Shown: positions 3,358 to 35,058 of the stretch, piece by piece
Numbering within the stretch: position 1 is the stretch's first letter
Layout: each line of letters opens with the position of its first letter
NCBI GenBank assembly: GCA_022767075.1
Contig: JALEPP010000139.1
Coordinates: forward strand, 1-36,302
DNA from: Agathobacter sp.
GTDB lineage: Bacteria > Bacillota > Clostridia > Lachnospirales > Lachnospiraceae
Length of the DNA: 36,302 nucleotides
Direction: 5' to 3'
The notes under the pieces: generated by a model
Database searches by the model: none
Told to the model about the DNA's origin: nothing
The model's input: the letters and a program-made list of their open reading frames with translations, nothing else
Made by a program: the position numbers and the translations under genes

Positions 3358-3530
3358 CACATGAAAGCGAATGCAAATATGTACGGATACGTTAATTCGG
3401 AATTTACGCCTATGGAGTGTACAAGAACTTGCGAGTAGATAAGAGCTTTGTTCTATCAAAAGCATACACATTGAAGTAGGAATGAAACATAAAGGTTTAT
3501 AACTTTTTATAAGTTTTCAGTAACGGAATT
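3358..3530 (+). ncRNA. Presumed omegaRNA scaffold and right end of the tnpB element
   Basis: The non-coding tail after tnpB is where TnpB omegaRNAs are encoded. It holds a segment ending in GAAGTAGGAATGAAACATAAAGG, here described by position about 3472-3495, whose AGTAG...TGAAACA core recurs in the tail of the second tnpB element (about 36253-36269). A small TTATAA hairpin follows. The guide would be read from the DNA just past the right end, close to 3515-3535, directly before the cls promoter region. Boundaries are approximate. Confidence 0.5.
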
Positions 3531-9630: not shown

Positions 9631-10073
9631 TGGAATTAACCTTTGTTAATATTGGAATATGTGAGCAATCGGCAGAGCTGTTCGTGCAATCTGCAAGGAA
9701 GGGATATGACTCAAAGGACTTTATCGAGAAGTTAATGAACTCTCAAACTGCGATCTATTTGTATGACAAATCGGATACGCAAATGTGGTTAGGATATAAC
9801 TATATACTAGAAACCCTTGAGGCTGAGGTTACAATTCAAAAAGGAAAAACCTATCCGGAAGATTTAATGTCGTGGATTGGTTACTTGTTCGCATGCTGGA
9901 ATATAACATACGCGGATGATTATCCAAAGGATATGCTCAGACAAGCTTCGGTAGATACTCTTGTTCTGGCTTATCAGGGCTTGCATGTCCTAACCTTTGA
10001 AGATGCAATTATGGAATTAAAAAATATTTACAAGGAAAATGAAAAACTAAGAGAACATGTAGCAAACCAGTAA
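9630..10073 (+). CDS. Unknown protein coupled to DUF3990; candidate antitoxin
   Basis: I do not recognise this 147-residue protein firmly. It is soluble, slightly acidic, Trp/Tyr-rich in the middle, and ends in a charged helix (ELKNIYKENEKLREHV). DUF3990 genes are often paired with a small DUF3791 protein. This one is about twice that length and only loosely similar at its start (ICEQSAELF...), so it may be an extended or different partner. Its ATG overlaps the TAA of the upstream gene (TAATG), the usual sign of balanced production of two interacting proteins. Antitoxin or immunity function is an inference from this arrangement. Confidence 0.6.
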   Translation: MELTFVNIGICEQSAELFVQSARKGYDSKDFIEKLMNSQTAIYLYDKSDTQMWLGYNYILETLEAEVTIQKGKTYPEDLMSWIGYLFACWNITYADDYPKDMLRQASVDTLVLAYQGLHVLTFEDAIMELKNIYKENEKLREHVANQ

Positions 10074-10171
10074 TGTGGTAAGAGAAGAGGAGCATCCGAT
10101 TGGGACGTCGGCCTTGCGCGGACCGAAGCGGAGCCAAGAAGCGAGAACCTTCGAGCCTCCGGCCCGCTTCT

Positions 10172-10216
10172 ACAACGAAAAAAAGAATATCCAATCGGAT
10201 GTTCTTTTTCGTTGTA
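10172..10216. terminator. Hairpin in repeat copy A
   Basis: ACAACGAAAAA...GAATATCC pairs with GGATGTTC...TTTTTCGTTGT around an AATC loop. The stem contains an A-run on one arm and a T-run on the other, so it resembles a bidirectional terminator, the same as in copy B but with no tRNA to serve. Confidence 0.6.
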
Positions 10217-10234
10217 AGAGCGATAGACGGCGCA

Positions 10235-10253
10235 CGACGTCCAGTGGACGTCG
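10235..10253. repeat. 19-bp palindrome at the repeat junction
   Basis: CGACGTCC-AGT-GGACGTCG is a perfect inverted repeat centred on the junction (10245/10246) between the two tandem copies. It may mark the recombination point that made the duplication. Confidence 0.75.
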
Positions 10254-10314
10254 GTTTTGCGCGGACCGAAGCGGAGCGGAGAAGCGAGAACCTTCGAGCC
10301 TCCGGCCCGCTTCT

Positions 10315-10358
10315 ACAACGAAAAAAGGAATATCCAATCGGATATTCCTTTTCGTTGT
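10315..10358 (-). terminator. Terminator hairpin of tRNA-Gly (repeat copy B)
   Basis: Read on the minus strand, the hairpin starts a few bases after the tRNA 3' end: ACAACGAAAAGGAATATCC pairs with GGATATTCC followed by TTTTTTCGTTGT. The T-run within the closing arm makes it a plausible terminator for the tRNA. Confidence 0.65.
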
Positions 10359-10361
10359 AAG

Positions 10362-10434
10362 AGCGATAGACGGGGCTCGAACCCGCGGTCTCGACCTTGG
10401 CAAGGTCGCGCGTTACCAACTACGCCACTATCGC
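10362..10434 (-). tRNA. tRNA-Gly (GCC)
   Basis: The minus-strand 73-mer folds into a full cloverleaf: acceptor GCGATAG/CTATCGC, D-stem GCGT/ACGC, anticodon stem CGACC/GGTCG with loop TTGCCAA (anticodon GCC), T-stem GCGGG/CCCGT with loop TTCGAGC, and discriminator U. CCA is not encoded and must be added. A consensus promoter lies upstream and a hairpin terminator downstream. Its 3' tail is duplicated at 10218-10230, a pattern often left by integration or duplication at tRNA genes. Confidence 0.97.
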
Positions 10435-10465
10435 ATTTTCTGTTGCGCTCTTAAGCACATTTAAG

Positions 10466-10494
10466 ATAATACAGTATGAATAATGGAAAGTCAA
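10466..10494 (-). promoter_or_regulatory. Promoter of tRNA-Gly
   Basis: On the minus strand, TTGACT (10494-10489), a 17-bp spacer and TATTAT (10471-10466) form a near-consensus housekeeping promoter 31 bases before the tRNA. Confidence 0.85.
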
Positions 10495-10551
10495 CCATAA
10501 AATTGAAAAAATTTAAAAAAAATATTGAATATCTATAATTCGCTTCAGAAC

Positions 10552-11148
10552 CTAATCATAGTTGGTAATTTCAACACTAGGTTGGAGAACCAACATCATC
10601 TGATCATAGATTTCTCGTTTTAAATCAAAGCCTCCATTTGTCTTGGTCCAGCGGATATCGATGCCGATAGCACAGTCGTACATAGTCCGGAGCAGAAGAA
10701 ATGGGTCGGCCATATTCTTGATTTCCTTAGCCTTTTGCATTTTCTGAATCAGAGACAGGGATACCTTGATGGCAGGACTTAGGGTTTCTTCTTCTTCGAT
10801 GCAGAAATAGTCATTCAGGACATTCTGCATGGCGATGGTGGCAAGAAGCTTTGGTCCAAAGCTGGTCTGTCTTGCAATATCAATTTTATTAAACTCCCAG
10901 AACTGCTCCAATGGAGAATCGAATTTTAAGAGAATCTCCGGCAACGCGGCCATTTTGTCATCGTCGCTGGTGGCATAGGTACTCCCAAATACCTCTTCCT
11001 TGCTGGTAAAGTACTGATAAAAGGTGTTCTTGGAAATATGTGCGCCTTCACAGATTTCCTTTACGGAAAGGGTATCCGGTCCTTTTTGTTTTGCCAATTC
11101 TACGGCTGTACGAATAATTCGATTTCTGGTTTCCTGTGGTTTGCCCAT
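10552..11148 (-). CDS. TetR family transcriptional regulator
   Basis: The 198-residue protein has the TetR N-terminal helix-turn-helix at about residues 8-55, ending in the typical SKNTFYQYFTSKEEVF. The C-terminal ligand-binding helices are not assignable to a ligand. It is divergent from the reductase/CoA-transferase pair, and the 210-bp space between holds promoters for both sides, so it most likely represses that pair and releases on binding the substrate or a CoA ester. This is inferred from gene order. Its own promoter appears to be an extended -10, TGCTATACT, on the minus strand near 11188-11196. Confidence 0.9.
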   Translation of the reverse strand: MGKPQETRNRIIRTAVELAKQKGPDTLSVKEICEGAHISKNTFYQYFTSKEEVFGSTYATSDDDKMAALPEILLKFDSPLEQFWEFNKIDIARQTSFGPKLLATIAMQNVLNDYFCIEEEETLSPAIKVSLSLIQKMQKAKEIKNMADPFLLLRTMYDCAIGIDIRWTKTNGGFDLKREIYDQMMLVLQPSVEITNYD

Positions 11149-11358: not shown

Positions 11359-13632
11359 ATGAAAACAGATAAAATCGTGCAGGAGCTGGTAGACAGCTAC
11401 GGAGACTGGATGGTCCAGAATCCGGAAAAAACCGGTAAGGGTGGCTGTGGAAAAATGACATCGGAGCTGTACCCATACAATCACCTCTTTTCCCCGATTC
11501 AGGTGAACCGTACCAAAATCAAAAACCGTGTGGTAATGGCACCTATGGGAAATCTGCAGATGGCAGAGGAGACGGGAAGACCGGGTCAGAAGATGCTTGA
11601 CTACTTTTTTGCCAGAGCAAAGGGTGGTACCGGTTTATTGACCACCGGTCTGATTCCGGTTAGTCATGGTATCGATCATACGGTAACAGAGTCCGGGGAG
11701 CTTTCTTATTTCCCAAGAATTGATCGTACCAGAACTGTGTATGGGGGATGGCGAGACCTGGCTCAGGGAGTACATGCATACGGCAGTCATATCTTTGTAC
11801 AGCTTACTGCCGGGCTGGGACGTGTTGGTGCTCCCATGTGCGTATTGAATGAGCACAAATTTCCGGGAAGTGCATCCTTAAATCCAAACTTCTATATTCC
11901 GGAGCTTCCAAGCTTTCGTATGAGTGATCACCATCTGAAACAGATTGTGAAAAACATGGGTCAGGCAGCAGCGGATGCCAAGGTGATGGGACTTGACGGT
12001 GTGTACCTTCACGGACATGAGGGATACCTTTTGGAGCAGATGACGAACCCTGCATTTAACCGCAGAAAGCTTGGTCATTATGCAGACTGGAGGAGATTTG
12101 GAATCGAGTGTGTGGAGGCAATCCGAAAGAGCACAGATCCTTCTTATCCGATTATGTACCGTATTGATTTGTCTCTTGCGTTAAATGAGACCTATGGGGA
12201 TCGTATGAATACGGTGCGCTCCCTGAAGAAATTCCAAAACGGGCGTACCATTGAGGATACCTTATCTTACATGGAGGACCTTGTAAAAGCAGGTGTGGAT
12301 ATGTTTGACGTGGACCTTGGCTGCTATGACAACTGGTGGCTTCCACATCCACCGGCAGGAATGCCTGCAGGTTGCTTTCTGGAGATTTCACGCATTGCAA
12401 AGGAGCATTTTGCAAAGAATCATATCATATCCAACGCCGGCTATGAGGTTCCAATCGTGGCTGTAGGAAAGCTTGGATATCCGGACCTTGCAGAAAAGGC
12501 CCTTATGGACGGAGATTGCGACATGGTTATGCTTGGCAGACCACTTCTTGCGGATGCGGAGTGGTGCAACAAAGCGTACAGAGGTGATGTGGCGGATATT
12601 CGTCCATGTATCGGATGTCAGGAGGGTTGCGTCAACGAGTTTGTGGAGGGTGGCCATATCCAGTGTACCATCAACCCAAGAACCGGATTTGAGGACGTGA
12701 TTCCGGAGAAGCTTCCGGAGGCAAAGGAGAAGAAACACATTGCTGTCATCGGTGCAGGCCCGGCAGGTATGGCTTTTTCCCTTGCGGCTCTTGAGAGAGG
12801 GCATGAGATTACTCTGATTGAAAAAGAAGGACAGCTTGGAGGAAAGGTTCTTCCGGGAAGTGCCTCTAAAATCAAGTATGACTTCCACAACTATTTAACC
12901 TATTTGTGTCATAGAATTGATAAGGCAAAAGAAAATGAGAAGTTCCACTTACTCCTAAACACCTCGGTAGATACCAATTGGTTAAAGGAACAGGGCTTTG
13001 ATTCCATCGTGTTTGCCAACGGATCGGTCAATATTGATCCTCCATTCCCTGGAAAAGACCAGATAAAGCATGTCCAGGCAGTAGACCTTTTAGTAGACCC
13101 AAGTCTCCTTGGAGATGCGAAAAATGTAGTAGTTGTGGGTGGTGGAACCGTAGGCTGTGAGACCGCATATTTCCTTGCCTACGAGCACAACTGCAAGGTG
13201 AAGGTTGTGGAGATGGCTGATCAGATGATGAATGGTGTATGTACCGCAAACCGTGGTCATTTGATTCATTACATGGAGAAAAAGGGTGTGGAGCTTGTGA
13301 ACTGTGCCAAGGTTGTTTCTTTTGAAAAGGGAAAAGTCAATGTTGCTAGAGTGACGAAGAATGTTCCGGACCCTTACAACACCTGGCAGCCGATTCTTCC
13401 GAAAAACATCAAGAATCCACTTGGAAAAACCCCGGGAACCGAGACGAGGGATATGTCCCTTGAGGCGGATATAGTTGTCATTGCTATGGGTGGAAGAGCA
13501 GATGATGGGTTCTATTTTGACGCGGTAAAAGAGCACTGTGCCAAGGAAGTGTTTGCAATTGGAGATTGTCGTAAGGCCGCAAGAGTGCTGGAGGCTACCA
13601 GAGCAGCCCTTCGCCTTGCTATGGATATTTAA
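11359..13632 (+). CDS. Old-yellow-enzyme/Fe-S/FAD enoate reductase
   Basis: The 757-residue flavoprotein has the 2,4-dienoyl-CoA reductase/2-enoate reductase/BaiCD-BaiH layout. Residues about 40-400 form an FMN barrel with the active-site LHGHEGYLLEQMTNP (H218, H220). A 4Fe-4S cluster follows with C417, C420, C424 and C436. FAD- and NAD(P)H-binding domains show GAGPAG (465-470) and VVGGGTVGCE. Electrons pass from NAD(P)H via FAD and the cluster to FMN, which reduces a C=C bond. A family-atypical N-terminal extension of about 38 residues precedes the barrel. It forms a tight operon with the downstream CoA-transferase (10-bp gap). The substrate is unknown: bile acids, cinnamate-type acids and other enoates are all possible. 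Confidence 0.9.
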   Translation: MKTDKIVQELVDSYGDWMVQNPEKTGKGGCGKMTSELYPYNHLFSPIQVNRTKIKNRVVMAPMGNLQMAEETGRPGQKMLDYFFARAKGGTGLLTTGLIPVSHGIDHTVTESGELSYFPRIDRTRTVYGGWRDLAQGVHAYGSHIFVQLTAGLGRVGAPMCVLNEHKFPGSASLNPNFYIPELPSFRMSDHHLKQIVKNMGQAAADAKVMGLDGVYLHGHEGYLLEQMTNPAFNRRKLGHYADWRRFGIECVEAIRKSTDPSYPIMYRIDLSLALNETYGDRMNTVRSLKKFQNGRTIEDTLSYMEDLVKAGVDMFDVDLGCYDNWWLPHPPAGMPAGCFLEISRIAKEHFAKNHIISNAGYEVPIVAVGKLGYPDLAEKALMDGDCDMVMLGRPLLADAEWCNKAYRGDVADIRPCIGCQEGCVNEFVEGGHIQCTINPRTGFEDVIPEKLPEAKEKKHIAVIGAGPAGMAFSLAALERGHEITLIEKEGQLGGKVLPGSASKIKYDFHNYLTYLCHRIDKAKENEKFHLLLNTSVDTNWLKEQGFDSIVFANGSVNIDPPFPGKDQIKHVQAVDLLVDPSLLGDAKNVVVVGGGTVGCETAYFLAYEHNCKVKVVEMADQMMNGVCTANRGHLIHYMEKKGVELVNCAKVVSFEKGKVNVARVTKNVPDPYNTWQPILPKNIKNPLGKTPGTETRDMSLEADIVVIAMGGRADDGFYFDAVKEHCAKEVFAIGDCRKAARVLEATRAALRLAMDI

Positions 13633-13642
13633 GGGGTGACCT

Positions 13643-15262
13643 ATGGAAAATATGAAGAAAAAAGCCCTTGAGGCGCAGATTTGTTATGAGGATTTATTAC
13701 AGCGTCTGGAATTGGATACCGATACGGAGGTTGTGTTTCATGTGGCAGATGAGTCCCAGAAGAAACTGATGATGGATGCGTGCTATCAGAATAATCCATT
13801 TCCGGGTATTCCAAAGGCCGTATTATTATCTCTGAGAAAAAAGGCTATCAAACGCCTTTTTCAGGATGAGCTTGTGATTCAGACAGCACCGGCCGCTTCC
13901 ATTCTGGCATTAAATGCAGCAATGGGAAATGATATCTTAACCCTTAGAACCGGCAAGAAAAATGAGAATCCCATTGTTTGCGATATCGGATTTGCGGGAC
14001 TTCAGGTGGTTCGCCTTTATATGATGGCTTACCATGGGGATAAGGCCTTTGCCAAAAGCCGTTACCAGTCAGCTACCCGGGTAGACAATGCGTTAAACGG
14101 TTCCTTTTACAAGTACAAAACCAAGGACGAAAAGTATTTTTCTGCTCATGTGTACTATGAATCTCAAAAGCGCAGGATGATGAAGCTGCTTGCTATCAAA
14201 AAGGATCCGGACAAATTCCAGCTACTAAGTCTTCCTATAGACAAGGTTACCACTGCAAAAGCCATTGGTTCCTTTGATGCATTAGACTTAGAGGAAAAAG
14301 CCTTTGAAACCGGTGCCTGCGGATGTATGCTTCGTGACAGAAAGGAATGGGAGCAGTCAGAGGTTGGCAAAGCTGTGTGCGATATGCCCCTATACCGCCT
14401 GACAAAGGTAGGAGATGCCCCGAAAAAGGATTTTGGAAATGACACATCAAGAGGTCCCCTTACCGGTGTGAAGGTATTAGATCTTACCCACATTATCGCG
14501 GGTCCGGCGTGCACCAGAATCCTTGCAGAGCAGGGAGCGGATGTACTTTTGGTTCGCAGGGGAAGCTTTACCAATCAGGAACAGGCGATGCTTGAGCTGG
14601 ATGGATGGGCAGGCAAACATGCTATCCATTTGGATTTCAACGTGAAAGAGCAGCTGGAGAGAATGTATGAGCTGGTAAAAGAGGCGGATGTCATCGTATC
14701 CTCTTACCAGCAGGGTGCATTGGACCGATTTGGATTGTCTCAAGAGGAATTGAGAAGACGAAATCCAAATGCTATTATCGCTTCTATGATGTGCTTTTCA
14801 GACAGCGTGTGGCGTACCCGTCCGGGCTGGGCTCCGTTGGCTGAGGATATTACTGGGCTTAGCATCCGCAATGGTTCCAGGGAGAATCCGGTGAATCTCA
14901 ACGGAGTGCCTCTGGATTATATACCGGGCTTTCTTATGGCAGCAGGTGTCCTAGAAGCATTGAAGCGTTCCATGACAGAGGGGGGAGCCTATGAGGTAAT
15001 CGGCTCTCTTACAAGAGGTGGCTATTGGTTACATCAGTGTACCGATTTGTGCGAAAAGCCGGACTCTGACAGTGTCTACAAACATTGCTCAGTTGGCACA
15101 GGCATGCAGATACCACAGTGGAAGAAGCTCTGGTGTGAAATTCCGGAGACTGCGGTTGGAACAGTATTGTTCCCAATGCCTGCAACCTATCAGGCCGGTG
15201 CGGTAGAACCATATGGAAATATGCGCTTTTCTCATGGGGAAAATGACTTCCCAAACCCATAA
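13643..15262 (+). CDS. Family III (CaiB/BaiF) CoA-transferase
   Basis: In this 539-residue protein, residues about 271-450 are a clear CaiB/BaiF domain: GPLTGVKVLDLTHIIAGP, LAEQGADVLLV, and the probable catalytic aspartate D425 in GVPLDYIPG, at the place of the GDSNSG aspartate of formyl-CoA transferase. The first 270 residues look like a degenerate related lobe (FSAHVYYESQKRRMMKLL), making it longer than the usual 400. Family III enzymes move CoA between carboxylic acids through an aspartyl-CoA anhydride. Ten bases separate it from the reductase, so the pair probably activates an acid as a CoA thioester and reduces it. The specific acid cannot be read from sequence. Confidence 0.85.
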   Translation: MENMKKKALEAQICYEDLLQRLELDTDTEVVFHVADESQKKLMMDACYQNNPFPGIPKAVLLSLRKKAIKRLFQDELVIQTAPAASILALNAAMGNDILTLRTGKKNENPIVCDIGFAGLQVVRLYMMAYHGDKAFAKSRYQSATRVDNALNGSFYKYKTKDEKYFSAHVYYESQKRRMMKLLAIKKDPDKFQLLSLPIDKVTTAKAIGSFDALDLEEKAFETGACGCMLRDRKEWEQSEVGKAVCDMPLYRLTKVGDAPKKDFGNDTSRGPLTGVKVLDLTHIIAGPACTRILAEQGADVLLVRRGSFTNQEQAMLELDGWAGKHAIHLDFNVKEQLERMYELVKEADVIVSSYQQGALDRFGLSQEELRRRNPNAIIASMMCFSDSVWRTRPGWAPLAEDITGLSIRNGSRENPVNLNGVPLDYIPGFLMAAGVLEALKRSMTEGGAYEVIGSLTRGGYWLHQCTDLCEKPDSDSVYKHCSVGTGMQIPQWKKLWCEIPETAVGTVLFPMPATYQAGAVEPYGNMRFSHGENDFPNP

Positions 15263-15358: not shown

Positions 15359-16057
15359 ATGGGTCGAGACGTCATTATCGCATGTGATTTTAACAGCAAG
15401 GAAGAAGTAATGCAGTTTTTGGACAAGTTCCAGGAGGAGAAGCCGTTTGTAAAAATCGGTATGGAGCTTTTCTATGCAGAAGGACCGGAAATTGTCCGGG
15501 AGATTAAGAGAAGAGGTCATAAGATTTTCCTTGATCTGAAGCTTCATGATATTCCAAACACAGTAAGAAAATCAATGGCAGTATTGTCAAGACTTGATGT
15601 AGATATGTGTAACGTACATGCCGGTGGAACAAAGGCTATGATGGAAGCAGCACTTGAGGGACTTACCAGGGAGGATGGCACTCGCCCACTCCTGATTGCG
15701 GTAACCCAGCTTACCTCTACCAGTGAAGAGGCAATGAGAAGAGACCTCTGGATTGAGAAGCCAATAGACGAAACCGTTATGCATTACGCCAAGAACACCA
15801 TGGAGGCTGGCTTAGACGGAGTGGTATGCTCTCCCCTTGAGGCAGGAAAGGTTCACGAGGTATGCGGAGCAGACTTCTTCACCATTACACCGGGTGTTCG
15901 ATTCGCAGATGGCGACGTTGGCGACCAGAAGCGTGTTACCACCCCTGCAAAAGCAAAGGAAATTGGCTCAGACTACATCGTAGTGGGACGTCCAATCACC
16001 CAGGCTGAGGACCCTGTAGCAGCATATCGCAGATGCGTTGCTGAATTCGTAGGCTAA
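15359..16057 (+). CDS. pyrF: Orotidine 5'-phosphate decarboxylase
   Basis: The 232-residue enzyme carries the catalytic Lys-Asp-Lys-Asp set: K32 in FVKIGME, then D59, K61 and D64 in [17 protein letters not shown] near the C-terminus is the phosphate loop. It makes UMP from OMP, the last step of de novo pyrimidine synthesis. Length matches the bacterial short form. A GGAG site lies about 11 bases before the ATG. It stands apart from other pyr genes, and its stop codon touches the left end of the large palindrome. Confidence 0.96.
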
Positions 16058-16101
16058 GGAAATAATCCCCCTACACATCAATTCCATATATTAGAACCTA
16101 C

Positions 16102-16135
16102 AACCGCGGGGACTTTCTTCCCTGCGGTTCTTTTT
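16102..16135 (+). terminator. pyrF terminator (left arm)
   Basis: AACCGCGGGGA (16102-16112) pairs with TTCCCTGCGGTT (16118-16129), followed by CTTTTT. It lies inside the left arm of the giant palindrome. Confidence 0.8.
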
Positions 16136-16624
16136 ATGGATATTTGTTTCACGAAATCTCTCCCGGGAGTCCGCGGCATAGGTATTCTCATTTTCCGGTT
16201 CAAGCCAGCAAGTGTTTTCAGGACGCCCCACTCAAGCTTTTTTGATGATTCCGGTCCACCAAAGTTTGGACAAGAGACAAAAAGTTGTCTGCCAAAAATG
16301 CGCAGCGTTTCAGCGACGAGTCGTTGCTCCTCTTGGAGGCACCCTGAACGAAAAATCGGGGGCGGTTCTGTTTGCGGCTCGAAGAACGACAAACAGAGAG
16401 CCCCCGAAATAAAATTCGTGAAGGTGCCTCCTTAGAGGAGCAGACGAGGAGCGCCTAGTGCCTTTCTTTGGTGCACAGTTTTTGGCAGAAGCGTTCAAAC
16501 CGTTGGTGGACAGGAAAATTAAGCTTGAGTGGGGCCTCCGAAAACACTAAGCAGTCTTGAAAAGTCAAATGAGAATACCTATGCCGTGGACTCCCGGGAG
16601 AGATTTCGTGAGTCCTTTGGAACA

Positions 16625-16658
16625 TAAAAGAACCGCAGGGAAGAAAGTCCCCGCGGTT
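16625..16658 (-). terminator. Sensor-kinase gene terminator (right arm)
   Basis: This is the mirror copy of the pyrF terminator. On the minus strand, the same AACCGCGGGGA...TTCCCTGCGGTT hairpin is followed by CTTTT, about 40 bases after the kinase stop codon. Confidence 0.8.
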
Positions 16659-16695
16659 GTAGGTTGATAATCTGTGGAATTGATGTGTAGGAGGA

Positions 16696-19600
16696 TTATT
16701 TCAGGGCAGATGCAATCATCTCCATGAGTTTGTTGACATTTACCGGTTTGGCGATGTGGCCGTTCATTCCTGCAGCAAGAGCATCTCGCTTGTCCTCCTC
16801 GAAGGCATTGGCTGTCATTGCAAAGATTGGGATGTCTCGCTTGACAGGGTCGTCCATGGCACGGATAATCTGAGCAGCTTTGTAGCCGTTCATGTTCGGC
16901 ATCTGGATGTCCATGAGGATGAGGTTGTAGTATCCGGAGGCGGCTTTTTGAATCATGTCTACGCAGATGATACCGTCTTCTGCACGCTCCACCTCAAGAC
17001 CGGCACCTTTTAGGATTTCGGTTGCAATTTCCGCATTGAGGTCATTGTCTTCCGCAAGAAGGATTCTCTTTCCTTCAAAGCAGGTGGTGTCGATGTATGC
17101 CACATCGTCTCTTCGGATATCTTCGATTCCGGCGATTCTGTGAGGAATGATGGCTCTGAAGGTGGTGCCCTTGCCAAGCTCACTTTCTACCGAGATGGAG
17201 CCACCCATCAATTCAACCAGCTTTTTCACGATAGGCATACCAAGGCCGGTACCCTGAATGTTGTTCTCTGTAGCGTTGCGCTCCCTGGTAAAAGCATCAA
17301 AAAGGATTGGAAGGTATTCCTTTGACATACCAATACCGGTATCCGAAACGATGGTCTCAAATAAGGCATATCCCTTTTTCTCACAAGGAATTTCTCTTCG
17401 GATGAAGGTAATTTCACCACCCTCCGGGGTATATTTGTAGGCATTGGATACCAGGTTCAGGAATATTTCCTTCAGCTTGACCTTATCGGCATAGATGTAT
17501 TTGGTTCGAACATCCACGGTGTGGGTGAAGGTAATGTTCTTTTGGTGCATGAGCTCAGAGTAGACGGCGCTTACCTCCTCCACAATCTGACCGGCCTGAA
17601 TCGGAGACTCATCTAATACCATACGGTCGCTTTCGATTCGCGCCATTTCCAAAACGTTGTTGATTAGGGACAGAAGGAAATCGCTGGAGGATTTGATTTT
17701 CTTTACGTAGTCAATGCACCGATCCGTATCTTCTGTATTGTTTAGAATCAAGTCCGTATATCCGACGATAGCGTTCATCGGAGTTCGAATATCGTGGGAC
17801 ATATTGAAAAGGAAGGTGGACTTAGCTTTGTTGGCAGCCTCCGCCATGTTTCTAGCAGATTCCAAAATTGCCTGTTGCTCCTTCTCAGACTCGATAATAT
17901 CATCAATGCAGCGGATACCAATGATGAGGGAATTGGATTCCTTGCTGCCGCGATATGCAAATTTGACCTGGCAGTGGGTGATAGGTTCCCCAGGAACCAG
18001 ACGATATCTGCAGGAGTAGGAGCTTGCATTTTTTAGATTCGCTTTCACTTGGTCAATGGCAACGGCCTGTGTGACCCTCTCCCGATCCTTTGTGGCCACG
18101 TAGGTGTTGATGTAGGTTTCCCAGGCCTGGTCGTAGGAGCGGGCTTTCTTTTTGTCATCAGGCAAAAACACACCGTTTGCCTTTATAGGAACCGATAACA
18201 TCTGGTTCAAATCCACCATGAATACATCCTCCGTCTCGCGGCTGATGGTCTCCATGAGCTGGTATTGTTCTTTCAGATGAGAATTGAGCTTTGCGGTGTT
18301 CCGCCAGTTAATAATCATGAACAGGGTCAGAAATATCAGGATCACAATACTGGAAAAATACAGCGGATGGTCATAGAGGAACGCAATCAAGGATGGCTTG
18401 GAAGCCTCTGCCAGATAGGACTGGACAATTTCAATTCCCCGAGCTGTGGAGGTATTGTTAAGAGCCTTTTGCCAGATGGAAAAAAACTGATAATCCACTT
18501 TGGAATTGATTCCCATGGATATCTTAATGTCGGAACCAGGCACAATGTCCGCCTGAAACCGGTTCTGAATGTCCTCCCTGGCGAATTTTTGAGCGCTATA
18601 GCTCGGTAGTAAAAGCGCATTCACATCTCCTGATACCAGAGCATTGATGCTTTGGGCGGGGTCGTCATATTCTATGACCTTTGAATCCGGATACGAGGAA
18701 GAGAGAGTCTCCAAAATGTCTACATGATTCTCCACAATACCGATTTTCTCCGGCTTTCCGGTTGAACCGCGTTTTACCAGCAGGGAAAGGGTGGAGGTGA
18801 GGTAAGGGTCTGTAAGCTTATAGCTGTCTTCATAATAGCCCTCTGCATCCAGCCAGATATCCGCATCACCGGAAGCAACAATCTCAAGGTACTGGGTCTT
18901 GTCTGCTGCAGGCAGGAATTCATATTGGAGCCCCAGCCGGTTGGCGGTCTCAACAAAAATGTCCGCAACGATTCCCTTTCCGTCCCCGTCTTCGTACCAG
19001 GAGTAAGGGGGATTATCCGGATTCATGACAACAAGAAGCTTAGTTCCATCGTCCTTAAGCTTTTGTAGATATAGCTGCTCGGTTTCTGTAAGCTCGTTGT
19101 TGTGAAGCTGTGCTTCATAGTATTTGTTGTACAGCTCCATGCGCCATTTTGGACGGGCAATGTTCATTTGGTCGATGGCGCTGTCAAGCTCATTGATCAG
19201 GTCCTGATCTTCCTTGCGGGCCATAAAATAGTATGGAGTCTCTCCAAAATATTCGATGGTGGTTTCGTCATCAGCAGTTCCGATATAGCTGTTCACCAGA
19301 GCATCCACCTCCCCGTCAATCAGGGCTGCGGTAAGCTCTGCAGTAGTCTGGTAGTAATGGACAGAATAGGTAAAGCCCTTTTCTTTGGCAAAATCAAAAA
19401 ATTGATAGTTGTAGGTATGAGTCTCCAGCAAGCCCACGCGCATTCCCTCATAGGTGGAATAGTCACCGGCTATGATGGTGGAATTTCCACGTTTTACATT
19501 CATGCAGGTGGTGGCAGTGATAGCCGGATGCTTGGAAAAAATAAAGTCTTCTTCACGTTCTGTGGTGCGCTTGGCTGCTGTGTAGATATCCAGCTCGCCG

Positions 19601-19872
19601 TTTCGCAGCATTTCTTCACATTCCTGTGGAGTTTTGTCATAACCTACATAGGTGAAGGTGCACTGAATGTATTGGGAGAGCTCCTGCATCATTTCATAGC
19701 CGTAGCCACTTTTTCGGCCGTAGGAGTCCTGCTGATGATAGCTTGGGAAGGCATAGAAGGCAACCTTATACTCAGGCGTGGTGATACGGGGGATACTCAT
19801 GCCGTAAGCCGGACAACAGGTTAGGATGATCAGTAATGTGCAAAATATAATTGCGGATATCTTTTTCCTCAT
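16696..19872 (-). CDS. Hybrid sensor histidine kinase with two solute-binding domains
   Basis: The 1058-residue protein starts with a signal/anchor segment (about 6-24). Two extracellular SBP_bac_3 modules follow (about 34-255 and 277-490), then a membrane helix (about 503-523), a PAS-like stretch, HisKA with [20 protein letters not shown] (H693), HATPase with [14 protein letters not shown] and [12 protein letters not shown], and a receiver with phospho-acceptor D988 in [13 protein letters not shown]. The periplasmic-binding-like modules suggest sensing of an amino acid or similar small solute outside the cell. There is no separate DNA-binding regulator beside it and no Hpt domain, so its output partner is elsewhere. 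Convergent with pyrF across the palindrome. Confidence 0.93.
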
Positions 19873-34635: not shown

Positions 34636-35058
34636 ATGAATACAACATATAAATCTAACAATAATGTCGTCTATTCCTGTAAATACCATGTGGTGTGGTG
34701 TCCTAAATATAGGCGAAAGGTATTAATCAATGGTGTAGATATACGATTGAAGGAACTACTCTTGGAGTATGCTGCAAATCTTTCTGTAGACATTCTGGAA
34801 ATAGAAATAATGCCAGACCATGTACACATACTGATGGAAGTAGACCCACAATTCGGTATCCACAAAGCTGTAAAGTCCTTAAAAGGCTATACTTCCAGGA
34901 TTTTAAGGGAAGAATTTCCGTATCTCAGAACAAAAATACCGACACTCTGGACAAACAGCTATTTCGTATCTACAGTGGGTGGTGCCCCACTGGAAGTCAT
35001 CAAGCAGTATATTGAGAATCAGAAAACCTCGCAACGACAAAAGGATAAACAAGGCTGA
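34636..35058 (+). CDS. tnpA: IS200/IS605 transposase TnpA (Y1 HUH)
   Basis: This is a 140-residue protein of usual length. The HUH metal motif is in PDHVHIL (H62, H64) and the catalytic tyrosine is Y125 in KQYIENQK; HVVWCPKYRR near the start is typical. TnpA cuts and joins single-stranded DNA at the end hairpins. ATG at 34636 chosen; another in-frame ATG lies at 34630. Its TGA overlaps the tnpB ATG (TGATG). Confidence 0.96.
   Translation: MNTTYKSNNNVVYSCKYHVVWCPKYRRKVLINGVDIRLKELLLEYAANLSVDILEIEIMPDHVHILMEVDPQFGIHKAVKSLKGYTSRILREEFPYLRTKIPTLWTNSYFVSTVGGAPLEVIKQYIENQKTSQRQKDKQG

Follow-up and report, generated by a model that had tools for sequence, protein, structure and literature searches.

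The DNA stretch analysed here (36,302 nt from Agathobacter sp., hereafter the window) contains pyrF and a gene for a hybrid sensor histidine kinase/response regulator in convergent orientation (Table 1). The latter assignment comes from kinase-family matches, none of the 25 shown being above its cut-off. A single imperfect palindrome of 644 bp (16059-16702) fills the gap between the two genes, as a preliminary description had claimed for the whole intergenic region; its local arm-to-arm score was 243, whereas the maximum among 300 shuffles was 24. The arms are 316 and 311 nt long and 76% matched with gaps counted, and the perfect 40-nt block announced for each side was recovered at 16095-16134 and 16626-16665. 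The tips do lie at both stop codons: the pyrF stop (TAA) occupies 16055-16057, and the kinase stop (16696-16698, minus strand) falls inside the right tip. Neither a GTAG nor a CGTC tag was found at the foot of the palindrome. Each strand folded into one long hairpin, at -405.9 and -402.9 kcal/mol (z = -31 and -23, calculated from just 20 shuffles per strand). The same terminator, with a stem of 11 pairs, is present in both arms (16102-16129 on the plus strand and 16658-16631 on the minus strand), in agreement with the earlier claim of one terminator per arm; four terminator-like sites were found, as against 1.1 expected from shuffles.

Table 1. Features of the pyrF/histidine kinase locus (positions in the window)
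Feature	Position	Strand	Basis or remark
pyrF, orotidine-5'-phosphate decarboxylase, left convergent neighbour	15359..16057	+	NCBIfam NF001273, 301.7 bits, above cut-off
Left outer arm	16059..16190	.	mostly locus-specific; starts 1 nt past the pyrF stop; inner limit approximate
pyrF intrinsic terminator	16102..16134	+	11-pair stem 16102-16129, T tract
Left inner arm of shared core	16191..16374	+	own-genome matches, alignment A1; conserved asymmetric internal-loop motifs; outer limit approximate
Apical loop	16375..16391	+	same in 27 sites except two purine positions
Right inner arm of core	16392..16570	+	covariation with left inner arm; outer limit approximate
Right outer arm	16571..16702	.	inverted match of left outer arm; contains kinase stop codon
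Kinase-gene intrinsic terminator	16626..16658	-	sequence same as left terminator
Hybrid sensor histidine kinase/response regulator, right convergent neighbour	16696..19872	-	kinase-family matches

Several other features were observed in the window. A RAGATH-18 RNA lies at 3409-3482 (+; 73.2 bits, above the gathering score). Two genes lie in 11359-15262 (+), the first for a BaiCD/bilirubin-reductase-like flavoenzyme and the second CoA-transferase-like, with formyl-CoA transferase as its best match; neither reaches the family cut-offs. Two copies of another repeat, hairpin-ended (ACAACGAAAAA..), occupy 10090-10360 and adjoin a tRNA gene at 10362-10434 (-). This repeat beside the tRNA gene, and not the present family, accounts for a weaker palindrome score at about 9921-10560. 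An IS200-like Y1 transposase gene is located at 34669-35022 (PF01797, E 8.5e-44), at a locus without the tip sequences described below.

Dispersed copies and their placement

The genome (G000) is a 2.12-Mb draft in 180 contigs, 84% complete. When the left window arm was searched against it, we obtained 27 matches, the arm itself and its partner included, which mostly start at query position 130-190 of 317 and continue to the centre. Thus, the inner arm is common to the copies and the outer arm mostly is not; an exception with an outer-arm match is C54:7271-7445 (query 37-215). The preliminary description had offered two head-to-head copies of a repeated element of about 310 bp as one option. 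The element is indeed a dispersed repeat, but the repeated unit takes in the centre rather than one arm alone. A search with the apical loop also gave 27 sites (21 exact and six with one mismatch; 0 for the reversed control pattern), and these loci, L029 to L055, were oriented by the loop strand and then measured. At 22 of them the arms are 151-457 nt long, and at L048 they are 125 and 122 nt; at L034, L035, L039 and L052 they are shorter than 60 nt, and three of these four loci are at contig ends, where several copies of the family are located. As palindromes, 19 of the 27 sites span 400-900 bp. A palindrome scan of this genome found 15 in 388 kb, which is no estimate of density since the contigs were chosen mostly for holding copies. 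One of the scanned palindromes (L313, 1-729), at the start of contig C1, is 97% matched, unlike the imperfect ones; it may be a fold-back assembly artefact. Near the apical loop, some copies contain a nested hairpin of about 50 bp (GGTCCTAGTCGTCC..GGACGACT..GGACGGACCGGAGC), an insert that lies just to the right of the loop in L031, L033, L040 and L051 and in the left arm in L050 and that has short matches in a number of other genus genomes.

The neighbours of the copies were called as long flanking ORFs, and the distances given here are accordingly rough. Convergent ORFs flank nine palindromes in this genome; the loop is present in seven of them and absent from two (L311 and L313). In eight of the nine, both tips are within 45 nt of both stops (1 and -7 nt for the window copy); the exception is L037 (169 and 193 nt). 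Another 17 copies face a gene end, and six of them (L031, L032, L033, L044, L050 and L051) start within 30 nt of that stop, the distance for L033 being measured to the nearer, shorter ORF. The family also has copies between tandem and divergent genes, and those between tandem genes are found in both orientations (five and five). Two convergent palindromes of genome G011 (L292, 4001-4600, and L291, 17305-17507) are also placed stop to stop, and the two convergent ones in G015 leave gaps of 28/39 and -4/210 nt. In the relevant passages of Di Nocera et al. (PMC3733652), convergent REPs are mostly within 20 bp of both ORFs, and GTAG REPs often supply a TAG stop. The position beside both convergent stops is therefore, as far as those passages go, a known trait of REPs.

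We compared the loci with those of relatives. pyrF was found in 29 of the 60 genus genomes, this one included, and no long palindrome was detected at the 29 pyrF loci of the 28 other genomes (scores of 22-37, as against 254 here). The pyrF/kinase neighbourhood was not recovered among these 28, so that they provide no empty site for the window locus. Elsewhere, the gaps between prs and rplQ (six relatives) and between pflB and pflA (eight) were without a palindrome, the best scores being 18-42.5. The convergent pair at L045, whose stops are about 600 bp apart in this genome, is -17 to 116 bp apart in eight of the 14 relative loci examined; in two others the genes are 401 and 834 bp apart, and in four the right gene is not nearby. 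Insertion between near-touching stops as the sole cause of the placement is refuted by prs/rplQ, since 119-375 bp separate the aligned ends in the six relatives.

The exact loop was found in none of the 59 other genomes, with up to two mismatches, and in no stretch of genome_contigs or viral_contigs. A covariance model of the core recovered the 27 sites in this genome (30 hits, three of them on the opposite strand) and, in addition, four sites in G026, one in G012 and a weak one in G070 (E 0.002); the remaining 56 of the 60 genomes gave no hit, stricter filters having been applied to more than 40 genomes. Within the sample, the restriction to this genome thus applies to the loop and not to the core. 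Four of the six sites in G026, G012 and G070 were read and lie within palindromes of 298-646 bp. Palindromes were also found in G011 (eight in the 366 kb scanned) and in the single-contig genome G015 (five, of 254-428 bp, in the 400 kb scanned). The five in G015 (L255, L257, L259, L260 and L271) are a third palindrome family, with a common core of its own and without the tip.

Element ends and REP-type transposases

Subfamily A comprises six copies (L030, L036, L037, L051, L054 and L055) with shared outer-arm sequence. At one end or at both, they bear the tip GGGACGTTCC..TTTCCACG.. or a slightly different form of it. The same tip, inverted, flanks two genes for Y1 transposases of 256 and 264 aa (contigs C13 and C118). 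Both proteins match PF01797 (4.2e-19 and 3.4e-17), and the best NCBIfam match of both is the REP-associated tyrosine transposase (REP_Tyr_transpos), with 61.2 and 56.8 against a cut-off of 80. In the sections of PMC6006769 drawn on here, long Y1 proteins with a C-terminal HTH are regarded as probable TIRYTs, and those of TnpA_REP subclass 2.1 have this form; in our two proteins, the HTH is only hinted at (E 0.13 and 0.028, below the cut-off). TIRtrons and TIRYTs (PMC3733652; TnpA_REP subclass 2.1 of PMC6006769) are portrayed there, like the genes found here, as a Y1 transposase between long inverted repeats that are also dispersed. The TIR motif given in those sections, GGGGWSAS, comes near the subfamily A tip (GGGGACGT) and is satisfied by GGGGACAG beside the L248 gene. 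Neither giant hairpin members nor locus-specific outer arms, both of which are seen here, are described in the same sections.

The tip pattern occurs in 10 of the 60 genus genomes (0 for the reversed control), with 36 sites in G000, 33 in G011, 28 in G012 and at most three in each other genome. The C118 protein was compared with ten chosen genomes; full-length relatives were present in G000, G011 and G012, and the coordinates place every one of them between tips (in G012, one flanking tip has a mismatch), a second, weaker relative was found in G011 and a broken remnant in G016, and relatives were absent from the other six. The three genomes with full-length relatives are also the only ones among the 60 with more than three tip sites. 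Among the palindromes, only those of subfamily A and some loop-less ones were seen to bear tips; the window copy has none. In G011, elements carry the tip at one or both ends, the giant ones around a different core. In G026, both the tip and any match to the C118 transposase are lacking, despite its four core-related sites, and the core is thus not dependent on the transposase. The core and the transposase are linked in this genome, yet they are not one inseparable unit. The Y1 enzyme may cleave the ends of the tip-bearing subfamily.

Covariation of the core and apparent copying between arms

Core sequences were aligned for 19 of the 27 copies, namely those reaching 125 nt on both sides and free of the nested insert in the right arm. 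RNAalifold predicted 96 pairs, and in 64 of them both sides had changed together at least once. No variation was seen in the apical loop or at several internal-loop positions, and 94.6% of the cells paired. None of 500 shuffles reached any of the five measures. When the partner was slid, 20-33 two-sided pairs were obtained instead of 64, and 47 were left when the divergent rows L039 and L054 were removed. The preliminary description had suggested a very long structured RNA able to form from either strand; the covariation among copies is real, as is the folding of both strands.

An RNA is expected to tolerate G.U more than A.C. In the structure of the loop strand, G.T mispairs outnumbered A.C by 111 to 22 (58 to 22 without the pairs that are mainly G.T). 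However, the folding program itself favours G.U; the structure of the opposite strand gave 80 to 23 in its own favour, and in the 73 pairs common to the structures of both strands, the counts were 16 and 17. Isolated mismatches in all 27 copies gave p values of 0.06, 0.59 and 0.01 for the core, depending on stringency, and no significant G.T excess for the outer arms. A cruder count, in which the pairwise alignments run through internal loops, was 111 to 85 in the core and 67 to 67 in the outer arms. The consensus energy was better on the loop strand (-120 as against -80). A known RNA family was rejected as an identification, since no Rfam model matched at its gathering threshold; the two weak matches (E 0.16 and 4.9) were far below the gathering scores. 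Taken together, the mispair counts are mixed for the core and show nothing for the outer arms, and selection for RNA may or may not be the cause of the covariation.

L051 and L054 are at unrelated loci and have near-identical inner arms: between their left arms, 5 of the inner 170 columns and 55 of the outer 200 differ. In the right arms, 39 columns of the outer 200 differ, and the part near the centre is disturbed in L051 by the nested insert of about 50 bp. Of 26 left-arm substitutions between the two copies, 24 have a partner position in both; 14 of these 24, including all 11 at arm positions 106-171, are exactly mirrored in the right arm, and 10 are not.

Coding ends were found within two palindromes. 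At L040, between prs and rplQ, the prs stop is directly followed by an inverted match to the last part of the rplQ coding region (21 of 22 nt), and 0 of 2000 shuffles did as well. The rplQ end is similar in six relatives and fits the L17 family model to its very end, so rplQ is taken as the template and the prs side as the copy. The other case, L038, involves a membrane-protein gene (ECF-type by eye; no NCBIfam match), whose end recurs inverted 11 nt behind the deoB stop (score 27, maximum among shuffles 26; 0 of 2000). In each of the 14 close relatives read, this end can be recognised, and deoB is beside the gene in none of them; these relatives therefore offer no empty site for L038. Coding-end copies at L032, L044, L045 and L051 were not significant, leaving two significant loci among the six tested. 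An inverted duplication of the 3' region of one gene, another of the earlier options, accordingly applies to the outer arms at L040 and L038, where relatives name the template; at the window locus just 7 nt of coding sequence lie within the palindrome, and no direction of copying can be assigned. Because of the inverted coding ends at two loci and the mirrored changes in L051 and L054, the arms of the family seem to have been copied from each other as DNA.

Origin of the family

The explanation we prefer, at a probability of roughly 0.57, is that the window palindrome is a copy of a giant, non-autonomous hairpin family of REP type, whose arms are kept matching by copying and which now serves as a two-way terminator. 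The element would fold into a long hairpin when single-stranded, as during replication, and the transposase of the tip-bearing subfamily would have mobilised it into sites behind stop codons. After insertion, DNA polymerase could switch template across the hairpin and copy one arm onto the other, sometimes carrying the end of a neighbouring gene along. Such copying would keep the arms complementary and push the symmetry outward until coding sequence is met, and the outer arms would be recruited, at least partly, from the insertion site. We propose that the copied flank can include the terminator of a gene, so that both convergent genes get one, and that the element persists in this role. The family is probably related to mobile REP elements. 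This reading draws on the dispersed loop sites, the covariation with conserved internal loops, the mirrored substitutions, the copied coding ends, the stop-to-stop placement and the tips common to subfamily A and the Y1 genes; the tipless window copy, the core-related sites of G026, the sub-cut-off transposase scores, the four loci with no significant coding-end copy, the ten unmirrored substitutions and those counts in which G.T exceeds A.C weigh against it. Mobility of the window copy, where the transposase tips are absent, is putative; this copy has probably lost its mobility, unless the tip-linked enzyme never moved it at all. More tentatively, and with appreciably less conviction, we suggest a genus-wide class of giant hairpins, which would have its identity in the conserved internal loops and not in the stem sequence, would grow by copying a flanking gene end together with its terminator, so that host DNA at each site would make up much of the arms, and would evolve by arm-to-arm copying.

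A different possibility is that the pairing itself is selected, in a large structured non-coding RNA or a single-stranded DNA structure of the loop strand, with the outer arms as passengers. The two-sided pairs with their conserved internal loops, the related cores in G026, G012 and, weakly, G070, the G.T excess and the better consensus energy of the loop strand are all consistent with it. The bias of the opposite strand in its own favour, the even counts in the shared pairs, the scattered p values of isolated mismatches in the core with nothing significant in the outer arms, and the want of an Rfam match at the gathering threshold count against it; furthermore, both orientations between tandem genes and a terminator ahead of the core in each window arm argue against a transcript from the neighbouring genes. 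We consider this reading unlikely. It is less likely still that the palindrome is a cellular two-way terminator or insulator, non-mobile and kept at gene ends by selection. Such a device would accord with the stop-to-stop position, with the identical terminators in both window arms and with identified neighbours that are housekeeping genes such as prs, rplQ, deoB and pflA. However, a terminator of 28 nt needs no arm of 300 nt, L051 and L054 have near-identical inner arms at unrelated loci, copies also lie between tandem and divergent genes, and the relatives compared lack the element at prs/rplQ (six), pflB/pflA (eight) and the L045 pair (adjacent in eight of 14).

The tips of L054 and L244, which read TAGGGACG...CGTCCCTA with GTAG and TA at both tips, could suggest a foldback MITE, mobilised by a DDE transposase and duplicating a TA target. 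In three species, however, Y1 genes are flanked by these tips, and we find such an origin improbable. As for a fold-back or chimera in the assembly of a draft genome, the 180 contigs, the 84% completeness, the several copies at contig ends and the near-perfect palindrome at the start of C1 might raise the suspicion. The arms of the window palindrome differ by about 24%, different genes flank its two sides, other copies have other flanks, and similar, shorter palindromes occur inside the single-contig genome G015; hence, we give an artefact almost no credence.

The preferred reading, a giant REP-type hairpin, can be set beside the known systems as the cited parts of the literature present them. 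REPs, REPINs and BIMEs, which are GTAG-tagged and RAYT-associated, are likewise palindromic, dispersed and located at the 3' ends of both convergent ORFs, their tips may supply a TAG stop, and a gene of RAYT type is also present in this genome. REPs measure 20-40 bp according to PMC3733652, whereas 19 of the 27 sites here span 400-900 bp; the present family, in addition, has a complex conserved core and takes in the end of a host gene at two loci, and the window copy is without the GTAG tag. Nunvar et al. (2010, PMC2817692) describe BIMEs that captured rayt 3' ends, in which gene 3' ends join the repeat as they do here; the captured piece came from rayt itself in their four cases and from ordinary neighbours in our two. 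Template switching that creates and repairs hairpin stems, our suggested mechanism for the symmetry of the arms, is proposed in PMC8794818 for RNA genes, where the helices comprise 2 to 10 pairs, compared with arms of hundreds of bases in this family. Among the open PubMed Central papers covered by a literature search, neither such giant elements nor captured ends of neighbouring genes were found described. The words Firmicutes and Clostridi- are absent from the main text of PMC3733652.

In general, long palindromes are regarded as unstable in bacteria. Despite this presumed instability, 27 sites of one family, mostly large palindromes, are kept in this genome. If template switching keeps the arms symmetrical, the family would be a natural experiment in that process at the scale of hundreds of bases, and also a warning that covariation alone is no proof of RNA. 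The world of REPs and RAYTs, described mainly from Proteobacteria in the accounts cited, would be extended to giant hairpins, and the family may serve as material on how REP-like elements fill convergent gaps from stop to stop.
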